64,000 bases of DNA. Source: Deltaproteobacteria bacterium. GTDB lineage: Bacteria > Desulfobacterota > Syntrophia > Syntrophales > JAFGHS01. Each line of letters opens with the position of its first letter. Within the stretch, counting starts at the first letter, position 1. The DNA lies in contig JAFGLN010000029.1 in assembly GCA_016928025.1 (NCBI GenBank), positions 1 to 64,000 of the forward strand. Direction: 5' to 3'. The notes beneath the pieces are model-generated. The model saw only the letters and a program-made list of their open reading frames with translations. It was not told the DNA's origin and made no database searches. Both the position numbers and the translations under genes were made by a program. Positions 1,890-63,908 of this stretch are shown one piece after another.

Positions 1890-3098
1890 ATGAACAGGGA
1901 CGACATCGTAATTGTCAGCGGCGTAAGGACGCCGTTCAGCAAGTTCGGAGGCGCATTGAAGGAAATTCACAGTACGGATCTGGGCGTCATTGTGATCAAG
2001 GAAAGTTTGCAGCGGGCCGGGCTAAACGGAGAAGACCTGGATGAATTGTACTACGGCATGTGCGATCAGGCGGAGGCGGCCCTCTACGACAATGTCAACG
2101 GCCGTCAGGCCCTCCTGCGGGCGGGGCTCCCCAATAATCTGGTGTCACTGACCATTGACCGCGCCTGCTGTTCTTCCCTTTGTGCAGTGGACTTGGGGAG
2201 GAGAGCTATCTTGCTCGGCGAGGCGGATACCTGTATGGCCGTTGGAGCTGAAAATATGAGCAACACCCCCTTGCTGATCAGTAGGCACCGCTGGGGTATT
2301 GGAATGCAGCCGCTGCTTGTTCAGGATTACCTAAATCCGATTACCTATCGGGAGTATACACCCCTCGGCAGGGATGCCGGAGAAATCGCTATGGAGTATG
2401 ACATTTCTCGAGAAGAGCAGGACAAGTGGGCCATGGGTTCCCACCAGAAATGGGCGGCGGCGGACAAGGCCGGGCGATTCAACGATGAATTGGTGTCTGT
2501 GGAAATCCCTCAAAGGAAAGGCGATCCTGTTATATTTAACAAGGATGAATTGCCCAGACCCGACACGAATATGGACGCCCTGTCCAAATTGAAGACGATT
2601 TACGGCAGTCCGTCCGTCACGGCGGGTAATGCCCCCGGTCTGGATGCGGGGGCCGCGGCCGTCATCATTATGCGTCGTTCCCAGGCGGAAGAGAAAGGCG
2701 TCGAACCACTGGCCACGATTGTTTCAACGGCCAGCGGAGCGAGTGAACCCAGGAGAATGGCCGAACTTCCCGGTTTTGTCATCCAAAAAGCCTTGAAAAA
2801 AGCCGACTTGACGGTGGATGATCTGGACATCATTGAAGTCAATGAAGCCTTTGCGGCGGTTACTTTGGTTGCGACAAAGATTTTGGCGGAGCGGGAGGAA
2901 ACGAAATGGCGCAAGATTTTGGAAAAGACCAATCCGAATGGCGGGGCCATTGCCATCGGTCATCCCGTCGGTGCCAGCGGCGCCCGAATCTTGATGAATC
3001 TGATGTATGAACTCAAAAGAAGAGGCGGCGGATATGGTGTTTGCGGCATCTGCGGCGGATTGGCCCAAGGCGACGCGATGGTGATTCGAGTGGATTAG
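1890..3098 (+). CDS. Acetyl-CoA acetyltransferase / 3-ketoacyl-CoA thiolase
   Basis: 402-residue thiolase, full length for the family. It catalyses CoA-dependent cleavage of 3-ketoacyl-CoA, or the reverse condensation of acyl-CoAs. Visible motifs are DRACCSSLCAV with the nucleophile probably Cys93, NEAFAAV, GGAIAIGHPVGASGAR carrying the GHP histidine, and the C-terminal CGICGGLAQGDAM with the second catalytic cysteine. AGGAGA lies about twelve bases before the ATG. The gene stands alone and converges on the iron alcohol dehydrogenase, with a long inverted repeat between them. Chain-length preference cannot be read from sequence. Its likely role is the last step of fatty-acyl or ring-cleavage beta-oxidation. 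Confidence 0.93.
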   Translation: MNRDDIVIVSGVRTPFSKFGGALKEIHSTDLGVIVIKESLQRAGLNGEDLDELYYGMCDQAEAALYDNVNGRQALLRAGLPNNLVSLTIDRACCSSLCAVDLGRRAILLGEADTCMAVGAENMSNTPLLISRHRWGIGMQPLLVQDYLNPITYREYTPLGRDAGEIAMEYDISREEQDKWAMGSHQKWAAADKAGRFNDELVSVEIPQRKGDPVIFNKDELPRPDTNMDALSKLKTIYGSPSVTAGNAPGLDAGAAAVIIMRRSQAEEKGVEPLATIVSTASGASEPRRMAELPGFVIQKALKKADLTVDDLDIIEVNEAFAAVTLVATKILAEREETKWRKILEKTNPNGGAIAIGHPVGASGARILMNLMYELKRRGGGYGVCGICGGLAQGDAMVIRVD

Positions 3099-3107
3099 GA
3101 AAAACCC

Positions 3108-3139
3108 CAGGTTCAAGGTCCAAGGAAAAAGGTTCAAGG
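3108..3139. repeat. Dispersed CAAGG repeat, 32 bp identical to 46781-46812
   Basis: These 32 bases, built from GGTTCAAGG and GGTCCAAGG units, recur without a mismatch at 46781-46812 just before radA. Related tracts lie at 28088-28132, 54012-54085, 57084-57105 and 58562-58577. All are intergenic. Confidence 0.8.
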
Positions 3140-3190
3140 AAAAACCAGGGATAAAAAACGCAGACTTTGATCCTTGAACCTTTTTCCTTG
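3121..3190. terminator. Long inverted repeat between convergent genes
   Basis: Perfect 20-bp arms at 3121-3140 and 3171-3190 with a 30-base loop, followed by a T run on the plus strand. It lies between the convergent thiolase and alcohol dehydrogenase genes, so it could stop transcription from both sides. The arms are built from the CAAGGTTCAAGG-type repeat found elsewhere in the window. Confidence 0.6.
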
Positions 3191-3195
3191 TTTTT

Positions 3196-4407
3196 TTACA
3201 GTTCTGTTTTTTCGCCCGTCCAGGCCCGCAAAAAGAGATCCCGCACTTCGCCGATCGTCTCCGGCATGATGAAGAACGGCTTCATATTCGGGGGAATCAG
3301 AGCAATCCTGTTTTCGTAGGATTTGATCATGGCATCCAAGCCGGCGAAATATTTTTCTTCCGACAAATCCGAATCCTTGATGGCGGTTGGAATGCCGACG
3401 TCCTGCTTGAGTTTTGTTATAGAACTCAGAAGGGTTGATACTTTTGCCTTGTCCGTATCACCTTTCATACTTAAGGCGTCCGCTAATTGAACGAGGCGGG
3501 CGCGGCGGCCGGTTTTATAAAAGAACTCAAAAACAGGATTAAGGGCGTAAGCAATGGCCCGGCCATGGGGGATGTGAAACTCGGCGCCCATGATATGCGC
3601 TATCGAGTGCACGAGTCCCAGGGTTCCGTTGGCGAATGCCAATCCTGCCTGAAGGGCGGCCATGTGCATCTTGTCCCGTGCTTCCAGATTTTTGCCTTCG
3701 GCAACGGCTTTCGGAAGCCAGGTAAAGATATTGCGGGCCGACCAGAGGGCTTCGGAATCCACCAGATCGGAGGGATTGATCAGGACGAAACATTCGATCG
3801 CATGGGAGAGGGCGTCGAAGCCTGTATTGGCGGTTACCTGTGGCGGCATGGATATGGTGAGTTCCGGGTCGCAGATGGCAATATCCGGTACGATTTGCGG
3901 CGCGTTCCAGGCACCCTTATAAGGCGGCGTAATTGAATTATCCGTAATGACGGCGGCTCGGGTTACCTCCGATCCTGTCCCGCTCGTTGTGGGGATGGCG
4001 GCATAACGCGCCTTCTGTCGGAGGACGCATCCCAGGATCTTGGGGATCACTTCCATGACCGAGCACTTCATAAAATCGGGATTTTCATAAAGGACCCAGG
4101 CCCCTTTTCCCGCATCAATCGATGATCCGCCACCCAAGCCGATGATGAGATCGGGATTGAATTCATTGGCCAGCTCTGCGATTTTGCCGATCGTTTCCCG
4201 CGACGGGTCCGGTTCGACCTGATCATAGATGGTCGTTTCCGCCCCTTTTTCTTTCAGGATCGTCTCCAGCTTATCCACCAGCCCCTGTGATCGGACACCG
4301 CTGTCGGTGACGCAGAGAATGCGTTTTCCTGGTACACCGGCTATGGCATTCAGCGCCCCGGTGCCGTAATAAATTTCCCGTGGTGCGATAAAAACGTTGT
4401 AAGCCAT
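3196..4407 (-). CDS. Iron-containing alcohol dehydrogenase
   Basis: 403-residue group III (Fe-ADH) oxidoreductase interconverting an alcohol and aldehyde with NAD(P). The nucleotide-binding loop GGGSSIDAGK and the PTTSGTGSEVT segment are present. The metal-binding residues fall in GFDALSHAIECF and the HSIAHIMGAEFHIPHGRA stretch (Asp plus three His). Start ATG at 4407 follows AAGGAGAAACGA. The gene is monocistronic: its 3' end faces the thiolase, and the MetVF gene is read on the same strand upstream. Substrate is unknown; the family includes butanol, 1,3-propanediol and lactaldehyde dehydrogenases. Confidence 0.92.
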   Translation of the reverse strand: MAYNVFIAPREIYYGTGALNAIAGVPGKRILCVTDSGVRSQGLVDKLETILKEKGAETTIYDQVEPDPSRETIGKIAELANEFNPDLIIGLGGGSSIDAGKGAWVLYENPDFMKCSVMEVIPKILGCVLRQKARYAAIPTTSGTGSEVTRAAVITDNSITPPYKGAWNAPQIVPDIAICDPELTISMPPQVTANTGFDALSHAIECFVLINPSDLVDSEALWSARNIFTWLPKAVAEGKNLEARDKMHMAALQAGLAFANGTLGLVHSIAHIMGAEFHIPHGRAIAYALNPVFEFFYKTGRRARLVQLADALSMKGDTDKAKVSTLLSSITKLKQDVGIPTAIKDSDLSEEKYFAGLDAMIKSYENRIALIPPNMKPFFIMPETIGEVRDLFLRAWTGEKTEL

Positions 4408-16090: not shown

Positions 16091-16193
16091 GCCGTCACCT
16101 CCATGAGATTAATCCAATATCCCGTATCGGCATCCTGAATCGAGATCTTTAATATGAACCCGTCCTTGATTAGGCTTCGTCAACCTTTACGTG

Positions 16194-16949
16194 CTATGGG
16201 GTTCCATACAGGTATTTGTCGAACCACTTGAATATCTGGCTCCATCCGTCCATGGCCGCTTCAGGCCGGTATAGACCGCTGTCGACCATGAAGAAGGCAT
16301 GGCCGGTATTATCATAGGAGTGGAACTCATAGGTCTTGCCGTGCTTCTTGAGTTCTGCCTCCGTTTTGGCCACATCCTCCGGTGACGGCCGCATATCCTC
16401 CTTGCCGAAAAGACCCAGGAGGGGGCATTGGAGGTCTTTCGTATAATCGATGGGTGCCACGGGTTGACGAGGCGTAAGCTGTTCGGGGGGTGCGACCACG
16501 CCTCCGCCGTAACAATCAACGGCGGCATCGATGCCGGGGACCGTGCAGGCCGCCAAATAGACCTGGCGTCCGCCGGAGCAGTAGCCGATGATGCCGACTT
16601 TTCCTTTTAAGTAAGGGAGAGTACGCAGATATTCGATGGCTCCTTCAATATCCCCCATCGTACGGTCGTCGGGCATACCGCCCGCTTCCCTGACGCTTTG
16701 GGCGTTTTTACGGAAAGACCCTTGGTGTTCCCGGAAATGCAGATTGGGGCAGATGGCGCAATAGCCTTGATACGCGAAGTGGCGCGTTATTTCTTTGGTC
16801 GGATTGTCCCATCCGGGCATGTGATGGACGACGACCACTCCCGGATAGGGACCGTCTCCAAGGGGGCGGGCGAAATACGCGTCGATCAGATCGTTCTCAT
16901 GGCCCCGCATATTGACAATTTCCGCCATCATTTTCGATTCATACCGCAT
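16194..16949 (-). CDS. Dienelactone hydrolase family protein
   Basis: 251-residue alpha/beta hydrolase. The nucleophile elbow is GIIGYCSGGRQ, with Cys rather than Ser as in carboxymethylenebutenolidase; the acid is probably the Asp in LFGKEDMRPSPED, and the His is in YDNTGHAFFM. AGGAGG lies upstream of ATG 16949. The C-terminus (WSQIFKWFDKYLYGTP) is typical. It follows the radical SAM gene on the same strand by 18 bases, so the two may be co-transcribed. The substrate is unknown; many relatives are general ester or lactone hydrolases. Confidence 0.88.
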   Translation of the reverse strand: MRYESKMMAEIVNMRGHENDLIDAYFARPLGDGPYPGVVVVHHMPGWDNPTKEITRHFAYQGYCAICPNLHFREHQGSFRKNAQSVREAGGMPDDRTMGDIEGAIEYLRTLPYLKGKVGIIGYCSGGRQVYLAACTVPGIDAAVDCYGGGVVAPPEQLTPRQPVAPIDYTKDLQCPLLGLFGKEDMRPSPEDVAKTEAELKKHGKTYEFHSYDNTGHAFFMVDSGLYRPEAAMDGWSQIFKWFDKYLYGTP

Positions 16950-41495: not shown

Positions 41496-41511
41496 TGCAA
41501 TTATAATACCA
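41496..41511 (-). promoter_or_regulatory. Sigma-54-like promoter of PEP-CTERM gene 1
   Basis: On the minus strand TGGTATTATAATTGCA: GG and GC are exactly ten bases apart and TTGCA is perfect at -12; the -24 block has two mismatches to TGGCAC. It lies 166 bases from the ATG. Confidence 0.5.
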
Positions 41512-41575: not shown

Positions 41576-41592
41576 TGTAAATTATTCCGACA
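41576..41592 (-). promoter_or_regulatory. 17-bp upstream activator-like dyad (copy 1)
   Basis: Minus strand TGTCGGAATAATTTACA, matching 14 of 17 bases of the dyad upstream of PEP-CTERM gene 2 (50980-50996). It lies 64 bases upstream of the sigma-54-like element. Confidence 0.55.
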
Positions 41593-50979: not shown

Positions 50980-50996
50980 TGTCGATATATTTTACA
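50980..50996 (+). promoter_or_regulatory. 17-bp upstream activator-like dyad (copy 2)
   Basis: TGTCGATATATTTTACA; same position class as 63002-63018 (one mismatch, TGTCGATATACTTTACA). Half sites TGTCGA and TTTACA flank five bases. A further TGTAAA half-site precedes it at 50973-50978. It lies 155 bases upstream of the sigma-54-like promoter, as enhancers do. Confidence 0.65.
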
Positions 50997-51151
50997 CTTT
51001 GGGGCATGATACATAACTATTTGTATTTGTTGATTATATCATTATTTTTGGTTCGTTTAAAAGGTGTGATAGTCGGGTATCTTTACAATACCGTCAGGTC
51101 CAAAATGAGCTAAGATTTAAATATGTTCATATAATCAGATAGTTAAGGCCA

Positions 51152-51167
51152 TGGCATTTTGTTTGCA
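51152..51167 (+). promoter_or_regulatory. Sigma-54 promoter of PEP-CTERM gene 2
   Basis: TGGCATTTTGTTTGCA: one mismatch from TGGCAC-N5-TTGCA, with correct GG-to-GC spacing of ten. The predicted start is about 12 bases downstream, giving a 45-base leader. Confidence 0.75.
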
Positions 51168-59900: not shown

Positions 59901-61088
59901 ATGAAAGACATGGCATTCCTCTTCGATCACTACAGATGGTTGTTGAAGGTCATTTGCTTTGCCGTTTTCTTTATCATCCTGGTTGTTGGTCTTTGGCCGT
60001 TCAATTTCTTTCCGCAAAATAAAGTTAAATGGCTGTCCGACAGGAGTGGTATTAAGATATATGGCCAAGGGATTATTATGAGTAAAAATCCCGGTTGGCA
60101 TCAAGCAAAACCTCTTTTTCCCGATGGCGCCATAACGATAGAACTTTGGCTGCGCCCAAACCAGGAGACCGGCAGTTTGCCCTCAATCCTGACGTTCTAC
60201 GACGGTCTGAACCCCGATATTTTTCTCATCGGTCAATGGAAATCACATCTGGTCATTCGCAGTAGGACGGTAAATCGCCATCATCGCAAACCCGGCAAGG
60301 TTTATCAGGAGATTGGACTGCGCAATGCCCTTTTGAAAAATAAAGATGTTTTCATAACCGTGACATCAAATAAGAACGGGACATTTATTTTTTTAAATGG
60401 CCAATTTGCAAAAAAATATCCTTACCAGAGGTTGATGGAAAACGTATCCTGGGAAGATATGCGTCTGATTGTCGGTAATTCTCCGACAGGGCAAAGTTAC
60501 TGGCATGGCGATATCTTCGGGATGGCGATATACGGCCGGGCATTTACGGCGGATGAGATTACGGGAAATTATTTGTCATGGATTCATAACGATCCTTACT
60601 CCATCAAGAAGGAGAAAAGCCTTGTCGGCCTTTACATGTTTTATGAGAGGGAGGGGAAACTGATTCACAACGTTGTGAATCCGGATGATACTTTGACGAT
60701 TCCGGATGTTTTCAAACCCATTCGCAAAGTTGTTTTATCGTATCCCTGGCGTGATGATTTTAAATGGAATATGACGGTCAAACAGGATGGGCCTGTGAAT
60801 ATTCTGGGATTTATCCCCTTGGGATTTTTCTTTTGTCTGTTGCTTATCAGTAAAAAGAAACAGCAAAGGTCCGCTGCTTATATGATGACGATATTGATTG
60901 GTATCGGGATTAGTCTGATCGTGGAGCTGACCCAGGTCTATCTGCCTACCAGAGATTCATCACTCATAGATTTGGCAAACAATACTCTCGGAACGATCTT
61001 CGGGGTCTTGATTGTTGCGATTTTGTCGGCATTCGAAAAGAGACAAACGCTCAATATTGATATCCCCGCAGGGCCCAGTCTCCGGTGA
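59901..61088 (+). CDS. VanZ-like membrane protein with inserted LamG domain
   Basis: 395 residues. One N-terminal membrane helix (residues 12-30: KVICFAVFFIILVVGLWPF), then a LamG/concanavalin-like lectin segment (about 55-225: ITIELWLRP, DVFITVTSNKNGTFIFLNGQ), and C-terminal VanZ membrane helices (VNILGFIPLGFFFCLLLI ... LTQVYLPTRDSSLIDLANNT). The split VanZ-LamG layout is seen in exopolysaccharide/exosortase-associated proteins, which fits the PEP-CTERM genes and rmlA here. Topology and function untested. Confidence 0.82.
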   Translation: MKDMAFLFDHYRWLLKVICFAVFFIILVVGLWPFNFFPQNKVKWLSDRSGIKIYGQGIIMSKNPGWHQAKPLFPDGAITIELWLRPNQETGSLPSILTFYDGLNPDIFLIGQWKSHLVIRSRTVNRHHRKPGKVYQEIGLRNALLKNKDVFITVTSNKNGTFIFLNGQFAKKYPYQRLMENVSWEDMRLIVGNSPTGQSYWHGDIFGMAIYGRAFTADEITGNYLSWIHNDPYSIKKEKSLVGLYMFYEREGKLIHNVVNPDDTLTIPDVFKPIRKVVLSYPWRDDFKWNMTVKQDGPVNILGFIPLGFFFCLLLISKKKQQRSAAYMMTILIGIGISLIVELTQVYLPTRDSSLIDLANNTLGTIFGVLIVAILSAFEKRQTLNIDIPAGPSLR

Positions 61089-61324: not shown

Positions 61325-61663
61325 TTAATGATATAATTTGTCGTTTATGACCTGCCGGAGTCTGGAAACCATTAAGGGTCTTTGCAGATACAGATCCGCA
61401 CCCGTATAACTTTCGCTTTGATTTTTGGGTGATTCCGTCATGCAGATTACGTAGACCGAAGGATCTTTCGATTTGATATGTTGGACAACATCGAGTCCTC
61501 TGCTGCCTCCGTTTGTAAGAATGACTTCGTACTGGCCTGTTGAAAGCATATTGATAATATCATCCTTGCAGGTGGCTATTCCCGTTTTATAGCCGAAGTT
61601 AAAGATGCTTTCCCCAAAAAATTCCAATGTACCGGGCCGTTCATCAATAAGTAGAACTTTCAT
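61325..61663 (-). CDS. Degenerate single-domain receiver 1
   Basis: 112 residues from ATG 61663, with GGAGG nine bases upstream. It aligns gap-free with the 112-residue protein at 63201, about half the residues identical by eye. Receiver fold landmarks are present (MKVLLIDERP, YEVILTN, ICMTESP, YLQRP), but the phosphoacceptor Asp is Asn51 and the conserved Lys is Arg95. It thus cannot be phosphorylated in the normal way and may act as a decoy or protein-interaction module. A dyad-like site lies upstream at 61740-61756. Confidence 0.85.
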   Translation of the reverse strand: MKVLLIDERPGTLEFFGESIFNFGYKTGIATCKDDIINMLSTGQYEVILTNGGSRGLDVVQHIKSKDPSVYVICMTESPKNQSESYTGADLYLQRPLMVSRLRQVINDKLYH

Positions 61664-61684: not shown

Positions 61685-62165
61685 CTACGGCATCAAGGCT
61701 GATACCCGATGCCTTTTCAGGAAAAAGTGTTTGTTGACGTAAAGGAAATTTACACTATCTGAAACATGACTGATGGTGAACTGGTGAAAAAACGGATCGC
61801 AAACAGATTTTTTCTTTTGACTGTTGGCTTAAGTCGTCTTCGAGTGATTTGTTTTCATCAGTTGAGGGGCATTGTAAAATAAAGCAAGACACTTGTCAAT
61901 AAAAATATTAAAATGCAAAAAAAACATTAAATTCATAATAGCGCTTATATCCAGCTGTCAGGTTTTTTTACAATTTAGTGTAAGCGATGTATGGATACAA
62001 TAAATTTTTTTATGATATCAGGGTCGATTATAAATATTTAGTTAATAATATCAATAAGTAATAAATTCAATTGGATGATTATACTAAAACAGGTATGATT
62101 TGTGCTGTATAAAATAGTGGACTTAGAAATTCACAATACTCATGTCGGATTCTGAGGAGATTATC
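61685..62165. other. AT-rich divergent regulatory region
   Basis: No gene. It separates the minus-strand receiver 1 from the plus-strand RHH-PilZ gene. Contains the dyad-like site 61740-61756 and a weak -24/-12 element AGGTATGATTTGTGCT at 62091-62106. Confidence 0.45.
61740..61756 (-). promoter_or_regulatory. Dyad-like site upstream of receiver 1
   Basis: Minus strand TGTAAATTTCCTTTACG: TGTAAA and TTTACG separated by five bases, same spacing as the TGTCGA-N5-TTTACA sites. No sigma-54 element was seen between it and the gene. Confidence 0.35.
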
Positions 62166-62660: not shown

Positions 62661-63001
62661 TATGATCGGAAATGATATTTAATCATTCCAACATGTTGTA
62701 TCTTTTCTGTAAAATATTGTAATCCCCCTTAGATTTCAGCCATTCCTTACGTTATTGTTGCCATCTCATTTTCCCCCCCCAATTATATACATTTAATTGA
62801 TCCCTTTCGCTTCATCATGAAAGGTGAATGAGTCCGTCCGCGTAAATAATTCATCGATAAAAATCCAGCGATAACGAACTTCCAACGAATGTGTCCCTCT
62901 TCCGGTTTCAGTGTCGGTTTTTCTTACATAAAGGGGAAAGGGCGTAATACATTGTAACGACATTATTTTCCTCAATTTAACCCTAAAGCCTGCCGGTAAT
63001 T

Positions 63002-63018
63002 TGTCGATATACTTTACA
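63002..63018 (+). promoter_or_regulatory. 17-bp upstream activator-like dyad (copy 3)
   Basis: TGTCGATATACTTTACA, one mismatch to the PEP-CTERM gene 2 site; a TGTAAA half follows after five bases. 119 bases upstream of the -24/-12 element. Confidence 0.65.
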
Positions 63019-63136
63019 GATTGTAAATAAACGAAAAATAATGGTCTGGATCAACGAACGGATGTCAGACATTTAAATTTAATGATATTCAGAACATGAG
63101 ATATCATTTTCTTTGTAGATTATAAATGGATGCTTA

Positions 63137-63152
63137 GGGCATACATATTGCA
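63137..63152 (+). promoter_or_regulatory. Sigma-54-like promoter of receiver 2
   Basis: GGGCATACATATTGCA: correct GG-N10-GC spacing, perfect TTGCA, GGCA at -24. 49 bases from the ATG, like the 57-base gap for PEP-CTERM gene 2. Confidence 0.6.
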
Positions 63153-63200
63153 TAACGTTGTATTACATAACGCAGCATATCTCATATAAGGAGTTATACA

Positions 63201-63539
63201 ATGAAAGTATTGCTTATTGATGAAAGACCGGATACATTAGATTTCCTCGGAGAGAGTATGGTTAAACAAGGGTATAAAACAGGTATAGCAAAAGATAAAA
63301 AGGACATTTTTTCAATGCTTTCTGAAAACCAATACGACGTAATTCTGGCAAACGGTGTTACCAAAGAGTTGGACATCGATAAGGATATACGCTCAAGGTA
63401 TGATTCCATTTATATCGTTTATCTGTCAGCCGACGACAAAAAAAACGAACACCAGCATGCCGGAGTGGATATGTATCTGCATCGTCCCTTTGTTGCCTCG
63501 GACCTCAGGCAGGCGATCAAAAAACCATTTACGCATTGA
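63201..63539 (+). CDS. Degenerate single-domain receiver 2
   Basis: 112 residues. Starts MKVLLIDERPDTLDFLGES; the DD pair is D-E (residues 7-8), the phosphoacceptor position is Asn51 in DVILANG, and the Lys is Arg95 in YLHRPF. These are the same substitutions as in receiver 1, so they were probably fixed before the duplication and tolerated since. AAGGAG precedes the ATG. It has a sigma-54-like promoter and a 17-bp dyad shared with the PEP-CTERM genes. Confidence 0.87.
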   Translation: MKVLLIDERPDTLDFLGESMVKQGYKTGIAKDKKDIFSMLSENQYDVILANGVTKELDIDKDIRSRYDSIYIVYLSADDKKNEHQHAGVDMYLHRPFVASDLRQAIKKPFTH

Positions 63540-63908
63540 CTGACGAATGAGCAGCCTCGTCGTGGAGGCCGGGAATTGTTAAACTTAAGGCTGACCTGTG
63601 CCCGGGCGTCGCGTCTATAAAAATAAGCCCAAGATTAAATATCGCTCTCTTTTTCATAACCTCGTTGATAAAAAACGATCTCCCCAGGATCCCTTGTCAA
63701 AAAGAGATCCGGGGAGATCGTTTTTGCAATAGTCGTTCTGATACCTCGCAGCTTGCAGCAGGGCGATTTAATCGTCACAGATCGTTCCACAACATTTTGC
63801 TTTCTTCATAAGTTTACAAATGATATGGAGAAATCTATCTAAAATGATCCCCATGATGTCCCATCGGGCTAAAGCAAAATAAGGATGGAAAGGACGTTAA
63901 AACATCAA
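63540..63908. other. Intergenic region before rmlA
   Basis: No gene seen; holds the hairpin at 63670-63725. Confidence 0.5.
63670..63725 (+). terminator. Long terminator hairpin
   Basis: AAAAACGATCTCCCC (63671-63685) and GGGGAGATCGTTTTT (63711-63725) form a 15-bp perfect stem with A and T tracts outside, so it can act in both directions. Confidence 0.8.

Follow-up and report, generated by a model that had tools for sequence, protein, structure and literature searches.

Near the end of the analyzed window (the whole stretch of 64,000 nt) lies a gene for a receiver domain that has lost its phosphorylatable aspartate (receiver 2), and upstream of it are sequences resembling the control elements of PEP-CTERM genes. 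The locus raises the question of why a receiver of this kind is placed under such control, and what it may do there. According to Haft et al. (2006, PMC1569441), proteobacterial PEP-CTERM genes are preceded by a 17-nt motif 1 that ends in TTTACA and is sometimes repeated, followed after a spacer of 32–92 nt by a sigma-54 motif 2. By phylogenetic profile, the same work assigned the response regulator PrsR and the kinase PrsK to this motif, and it noted a few sites 5' of other genes (PMC1569441). RpoN dependence was later demonstrated for one such gene (PMC9850573).

The earlier note on this DNA had placed GGGCATACATATTGCA 49 bases upstream of the ATG of receiver 2 and TGTCGATATACTTTACA a further 119 bases up, and both are found there exactly (Table 1). 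Judging by their letters, they are the motif 1 enhancer (TGTCGATATACTTTACA) and the motif 2 sigma-54 promoter (GGGCATACATATTGCA) of the 2006 PEP-CTERM genes, motif 1 being compared with its textual description in PMC1569441 and not with its logo. The element GGGCATACATATTGCA agrees with TGGCAY-N5-TTGCW at 10 of the 11 informative positions, keeps GG-N10-GC intact, and ends 48 bases before the ATG at 63201. The spacer between TGTCGATATACTTTACA and the sigma-54 element is 118 bases (135 bp from start to start). In addition, a distal enhancer copy, TGTCGGTTTTTCTTACA, was identified that the earlier note had overlooked, and a search for a third copy between 63018 and 63137 gave nothing convincing. 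The dyad described for the enhancer is present in an imperfect form only (TGT...ACA). In 20,000 dinucleotide shuffles of the region 62661–63200, an exact enhancer appeared in 7 and a sigma-54 site matching at least 10/11 positions in 70; neither an enhancer with a correctly placed sigma-54 site nor an enhancer pair appeared in any shuffle.

Table 1. Coordinates of the genes and control elements discussed in the text (positions within the window).
Feature	Position	Strand	Details
Receiver 2, single-domain Asp-less (pseudo-)receiver, 112 aa	63201..63539	+	phosphosite Asn51; PF00072 34.1 bits vs cut-off 30.2
Receiver 2, distal enhancer (UAS) TGTCGGTTTTTCTTACA	62912..62928	+	1 mismatch to TGTCG-N6-TTTACA; 90 bp 5' of the proximal copy
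Receiver 2, proximal enhancer (UAS) TGTCGATATACTTTACA	63002..63018	+	exact match
Receiver 2, sigma-54 promoter element GGGCATACATATTGCA	63137..63152	+	-24 GG / -12 GC
Receiver 2, Shine-Dalgarno-like AAGGAG	63188..63193	+	7 nt 5' of the ATG; read from sequence
Hairpin, likely transcription terminator	63671..63725	+	few T inside/after stem; RNA fold -36.8 kcal/mol, z = -7.9
RHH-PilZ gene (ribbon-helix-helix + PilZ), 172 aa	62142..62660	+	PF07238 33.8 bits; PF01402 21.4 bits
RHH-PilZ gene, enhancer TGTCAGGTTTTTTTACA	61956..61972	+	135 bp before its sigma-54-like site
RHH-PilZ gene, sigma-54-like site AGGTATGATTTGTGCT	62091..62106	+	135 bp after its enhancer
Receiver 1, Asp-less paralogue of receiver 2	61325..61663	-	49% identity; divergent from the PilZ gene
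PEP-CTERM gene 2, distal enhancer	50980..50996	+	comparison
PEP-CTERM gene 2, proximal enhancer AGTCGGGTATCTTTACA	51071..51087	+	comparison
PEP-CTERM gene 2, sigma-54 site TGGCATTTTGTTTGCA	51152..51167	+	comparison
PEP-CTERM gene 1, enhancer	41576..41592	-	sigma-54 site TGGTATTATAATTGCA 81 bp downstream at 41511 (-)

The hairpin lies between receiver 2 and the following sugar-nucleotide gene; a simple terminator scan did not pick it up. With this likely terminator behind it, receiver 2 probably forms a transcription unit of one gene. This suggests that its transcript ends at its own hairpin (63671–63725), and PEP-CTERM genes likewise usually stand alone.

The enhancer motif was then considered genome-wide. 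The pattern TGTC-N7-TTTACA has 51 exact matches in the 3.68-Mb genome, compared with 4 for the reversed pattern, and the form TGTCG-N6-TTTACA has 41 sites. Analysis of the surroundings of all 51 matches showed that most clusters lie 5' of PEP-CTERM genes, the usual cluster combining a pair of enhancers with a single sigma-54 site. The two copies are 89–92 bp apart in 16 of the 22 pairs and mostly 101–102 or 111–112 bp apart in the others; in relatives, the distances are near 88–91, 98–103, and 110–114 bp among the matches listed. The paired enhancers are helically phased, as at 62912/63002 and 50980/51071.

The earlier note had described the layout upstream of receiver 2 as a copy of that of PEP-CTERM gene 2, whose proximal enhancer AGTCGGGTATCTTTACA it had missed. 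The likeness holds for the enhancer pair (90 bp apart at receiver 2, 91 bp at PEP-CTERM gene 2) but not for the distance from the start of the proximal enhancer to the sigma-54 site, which is 135 bp compared with 81 bp, so an exact copy is ruled out by the spacing. At the PEP-CTERM genes of this genome, 81 bp is the commonest class of this distance, and values of 124–138 bp occur on contigs C24, C47, C57, and C78; receiver 2 resembles those on C78 (138), C24 (124), and C47 (126), as well as the RHH-PilZ gene (135). Expressed as spacers, these genes have 64 nt and, in several cases, 107–121 nt; the 118 nt of receiver 2 lies beyond the 32–92 nt of the 2006 set. Receiver 2 is very probably a member of the PEP-CTERM (PrsK/PrsR-type) sigma-54 regulon.

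As for receiver 1, the same control was ruled out, as no sigma-54 site was found upstream of it. It has a sigma-70-like promoter, TTGACA-17-TACAAT (61899–61871), the scan for which gave no more sites than shuffled sequences. An enhancer pair with a sigma-54 site was also observed on contig C121 of G000 (16106–16293). Some 650 bp downstream of it lies a PAS-domain-like gene, before which no PEP-CTERM gene was seen, and which may be another regulatory gene of the regulon.

The relation of the enhancer to PrsR was assessed in 155 genomes of the order (a search at the class level returned the same 155). The median number of TGTCG-N6-TTTACA sites per genome was 8 where PrsR was found above the cut-off and 2 where it was not (p = 5e-7, to be read as a guide only, the genomes being related). 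In the genome under study, the PrsR profile gave 54 matches, none of them above the cut-off, and neither PrsK nor exosortase was detected above the cut-off in this assembly (89% complete, 126 contigs). Since the genes for PrsR, PrsK, and exosortase tend to cluster, one assembly gap could hide all of them, and the incompleteness of metagenome-assembled genomes makes such absences soft. We infer that the activator of the receiver 2 promoter is PrsR.

The residues of receiver 2 were compared with those of intact stand-alone receivers of the same order (L075–L078). In the alignment, Asn51 takes the place of the phospho-Asp and Arg95 that of the conserved Lys; Glu8 is the second acidic residue, Arg9 follows it, and three residues are deleted after the phosphosite. 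No output domain is present. The description of receiver 2 as a degenerate receiver, with no phospho-Asp and under control elements like those of the genome's PEP-CTERM genes, was borne out. The AlphaFold2 model of the protein has a modest confidence (pLDDT 66.8), the alpha-4 region not being formed, and its best matches among solved structures are all receivers (TM ~0.7–0.8). The sequence profile of receiver 2 also retrieves receivers in the PDB.

A single-sequence pattern revealed no relatives of receiver 2 in the genome contigs, and an alignment-based search found five loci. Together with receivers 1 and 2, the family comprises seven sequences, the others being encoded in G087, G044 (two), G063, and contig L070. 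None of the seven has the phospho-Asp: six have Asn and one has Lys in its place. The pair Glu8-Arg9 is invariant, and the family profile gives 158–188 bits to its members compared with at most 60 bits for intact receivers. Between two sister lineages (L068 and L069), the pseudo-receiver is under purifying selection, with a dN/dS of ~0.14; comparison of receiver 2 with receiver 1 or with L070 yielded no dN/dS, synonymous sites being saturated.

The arrangement upstream of receiver 2 is kept at one other locus. On contig L070 (JARKQF010000114.1), a PEP-CTERM gene is followed by an RHH-PilZ gene and then by a pseudo-receiver gene. Upstream of this last gene, an exact enhancer lies at -327, a second one with two mismatches at -214, and a sigma-54 site at -80, so that the proximal enhancer starts 134 bp before the sigma-54 site, compared with 135 bp at receiver 2. 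This contig is filed under a Paludibacter bin, which we suspect to be a binning error. At the other four of the five homologous loci (G087, G044 (two), and G063), the enhancer and sigma-54 arrangement is absent; a search for degenerate enhancers there gave poor matches only and no suitably placed sigma-54 site. Conservation of the dyad in related genomes was therefore seen in one lineage but not at these four loci, a single contig showing the conserved synteny.

Two side observations concern these homologous loci. An unrelated 28-bp invariant block, CTACTCGTAAAAATCTTTCACTCTTGAA, precedes the pseudo-receiver genes at three of the four loci without enhancer (L064, L065, and L067), whose products are paralogues of modest protein identity; it is possibly the site of another regulator. 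On L070, positions 2422–3471 hold an open frame resembling KdsB (CMP-KDO synthetase), with an in-frame upstream stretch that resembles the Phd/YefM antitoxin, both judged by eye.

The gene between receivers 1 and 2 encodes a protein with ribbon-helix-helix and PilZ domains (RHH-PilZ), in which the RxxxR and DxSxxG motifs, read by eye, are intact. It has an enhancer and a sigma-54-like site of its own, TGTCAGGTTTTTTTACA and AGGTATGATTTGTGCT. In front of its homologues at seven more loci (L098, L102, L104, L106, L107, L108, and L109), the same arrangement is found at 133–137 bp, so that the RHH-PilZ gene recurs as a regulon member. The family was found in 12 of the 20 PrsR-positive genomes compared with 17 of the 135 others (p = 1e-5, a guide only, as the genomes are related and some matches are partial). 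The RHH-PilZ gene adjoins the pseudo-receiver gene at both loci with the full arrangement (here and in L070), and the family is present in G000, G044, and G087, all of which have a pseudo-receiver; in the majority of genomes, however, no pseudo-receiver adjoins the RHH-PilZ gene.

The slot 3' of the RHH-PilZ gene often has its own enhancer and sigma-54 promoter, and its occupant varies: L098 and L109 have PEP-CTERM genes there, L102 has another small protein, and L070 and the window have the pseudo-receiver. The small protein in the enhancer-driven slot of L102 (G135; 2452–2850 in reverse-complement coordinates) begins with MAAKIGLWLDERQAVIVSV. Next to the receivers, positions 59901–61088 encode a membrane protein with LamG and VanZ domains, which is kept beside the PilZ gene in G001. 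In this genome of the same genus, the order is VanZ, PilZ, and the sugar-nucleotide gene, with neither receiver; no enhancer at the PilZ locus, no enhancer excess, and no PrsR were found there.

Based on these data, the following mechanism can be proposed. An active enhancer-binding activator would bind both enhancers of the pair (62912 and 63002) and open the sigma-54 promoter at 63137. The receiver 2 protein made in this way would be a permanently locked protein-binding module, the activity of which would be set by its amount. Its likeliest partner would be the co-regulated product of the adjacent gene, the RHH-PilZ (c-di-GMP-type) protein, and together they would serve the surface-protein/exopolysaccharide programme as a regulatory side arm. 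Taken as a whole, this explanation (an Asp-less receiver that belongs to the regulon, is controlled by abundance, and has the RHH-PilZ protein as its partner) appears about as probable as not. It is weakened by the four homologous loci without the enhancer and sigma-54 arrangement, by the failure to detect PrsR, PrsK, or exosortase above the cut-off in the 89%-complete assembly, by a spacer longer than those of the 2006 set, and by the RHH-PilZ genes that, in most genomes, have no pseudo-receiver beside them. The loss of the phosphosite together with a tightly controlled promoter makes abundance control the simplest model for receiver 2, and a 2025 review lists it among the models for pseudo-receivers (PMC12632262). 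Read from residues and promoter, such control has roughly an even chance of being correct. Deamidation of Asn to Asp is a known caveat for the phosphorylation-independence of Asp-less receivers (PMC4395418).

The RHH-PilZ protein was ranked first among the partners because of its adjacency at both loci with the full arrangement and its co-occurrence with the pseudo-receiver in G000, G044, and G087. As a partner of receiver 2, it is put forward tentatively, its probability being well below even. A somewhat more doubtful proposal is that the RHH-PilZ protein and the Asp-less receiver, both behind promoters of the ~135-bp type, constitute a built-in arm of the regulon that would jointly couple c-di-GMP to surface-protein/exopolysaccharide output without phosphorylation.

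The earlier note had suggested feedback on the kinase or activator of the regulon. In such a model, the pseudo-receiver would bind PrsK, or pair with the receiver of PrsR as a heterodimer, and so damp or sharpen its own regulon. The co-regulation of receiver 2 with presumed PrsR targets is consistent with this, and competition for binding and heterodimer formation are among the roles proposed for pseudo-receivers (PMC12632262). However, only one of the 20 PrsR-positive genomes has a pseudo-receiver (G087), and there it has no enhancer, whereas G044 and G063 have a pseudo-receiver with no PrsR found; the four homologous loci without the enhancer and sigma-54 arrangement likewise speak against feedback. 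Moreover, the closest canonical relatives found are stand-alone receivers and not the receivers of PrsR. Feedback is accordingly considered unlikely, and the RHH-PilZ protein is a better supported partner candidate than PrsK/PrsR.

Alternatively, the degenerate receiver might bind a small molecule such as c-di-GMP and relay the signal. A precedent exists in the pseudo-receiver of Caulobacter ShkA, which binds c-di-GMP (PMC7010744), and the neighbor of receiver 2 is a PilZ protein. The surface from alpha-4 to alpha-5 that is used in ShkA is, however, poorly conserved and poorly modeled in receiver 2, and a ligand-sensing role is considered improbable.

About equally improbable is that the slot behind the RHH-PilZ gene captures genes and that receiver 2, a copy of receiver 1 in decay, came to lie there by chance. 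The varied contents of the slot, among them the PEP-CTERM genes of L098 and L109 and the unrelated small protein of L102, the nearby paralogue, and the homologues elsewhere that are not under enhancer/sigma-54 control are in line with such an origin. On the other hand, the frame of receiver 2 is intact and has a good ribosome-binding site, the family has invariant residues of its own, its relatives show purifying selection, and the same slot and spacing recur in L070. Finally, that both sequence motifs are chance resemblances has a negligible probability: the 16-mer alone is weak (two matches at no more than three mismatches compared with 0.6 expected), but a chance origin is ruled out by the shuffles and the genome-wide enhancer excess, with conservation in L070 also standing against it.

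The preferred explanation, a regulon-member receiver controlled by its abundance, can be compared with known systems. Like the PEP-CTERM box and the PrsK-PrsR regulon (PMC1569441), the receiver 2 locus has motif 1, the sigma-54 motif 2, a long intergenic region, and a single gene. It differs from the 2006 set in that receiver 2 is a signaling protein and the spacer is 118 nt instead of 32–92 nt, and from the PrsK-PrsR regulon in that no PrsR or PrsK was found in this 89%-complete assembly. In 2006, the enhancer was described almost only 5' of sorted surface proteins (PMC1569441); here, it also precedes signaling genes, namely those of an Asp-less receiver and an RHH-PilZ protein.

Like Asp-less receivers (ALRs) and pseudo-receivers (PMC4395418, PMC12632262), receiver 2 matches PF00072 without a phospho-Asp. 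Asn is the second commonest substitution of phospho-Asp in ALRs, and replacement of Lys by Arg is common in pseudo-receivers (PMC4395418, PMC12632262). Unlike the ALRs described (PMC4395418, PMC12632262), receiver 2 has no output domain and belongs to its own small family, of which seven loci were found here; a three-residue deletion after the phosphosite and control by a sigma-54 promoter also set it apart. The on/off switching of pseudo-receivers has been termed a mystery (PMC12632262), and a stand-alone receiver such as receiver 2, the amount of which is presumably set by sigma-54, is a clean test case for the model of control by abundance.

Two other known systems are close to receiver 2. 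CmrT of the Clostridioides difficile CmrRST system is also a pseudo-receiver protein, and a two-component system may control its level (PMC12632262). It differs from receiver 2, a solitary domain behind a promoter of its own, in having a DNA-binding domain and in being encoded in one operon with its kinase. The Caulobacter ShkA pseudo-receiver (PMC7010744) is, like receiver 2, a degenerate receiver; it is tied to c-di-GMP signaling, a tie that is putative for receiver 2. The paired promoters of receiver 2 and the RHH-PilZ gene indicate where c-di-GMP may enter the PEP-CTERM programme, and receiver 2 may act in a c-di-GMP-linked side arm of this system. In ShkA, the pseudo-receiver is a domain within the kinase itself (PMC7010744), whereas receiver 2 stands alone.
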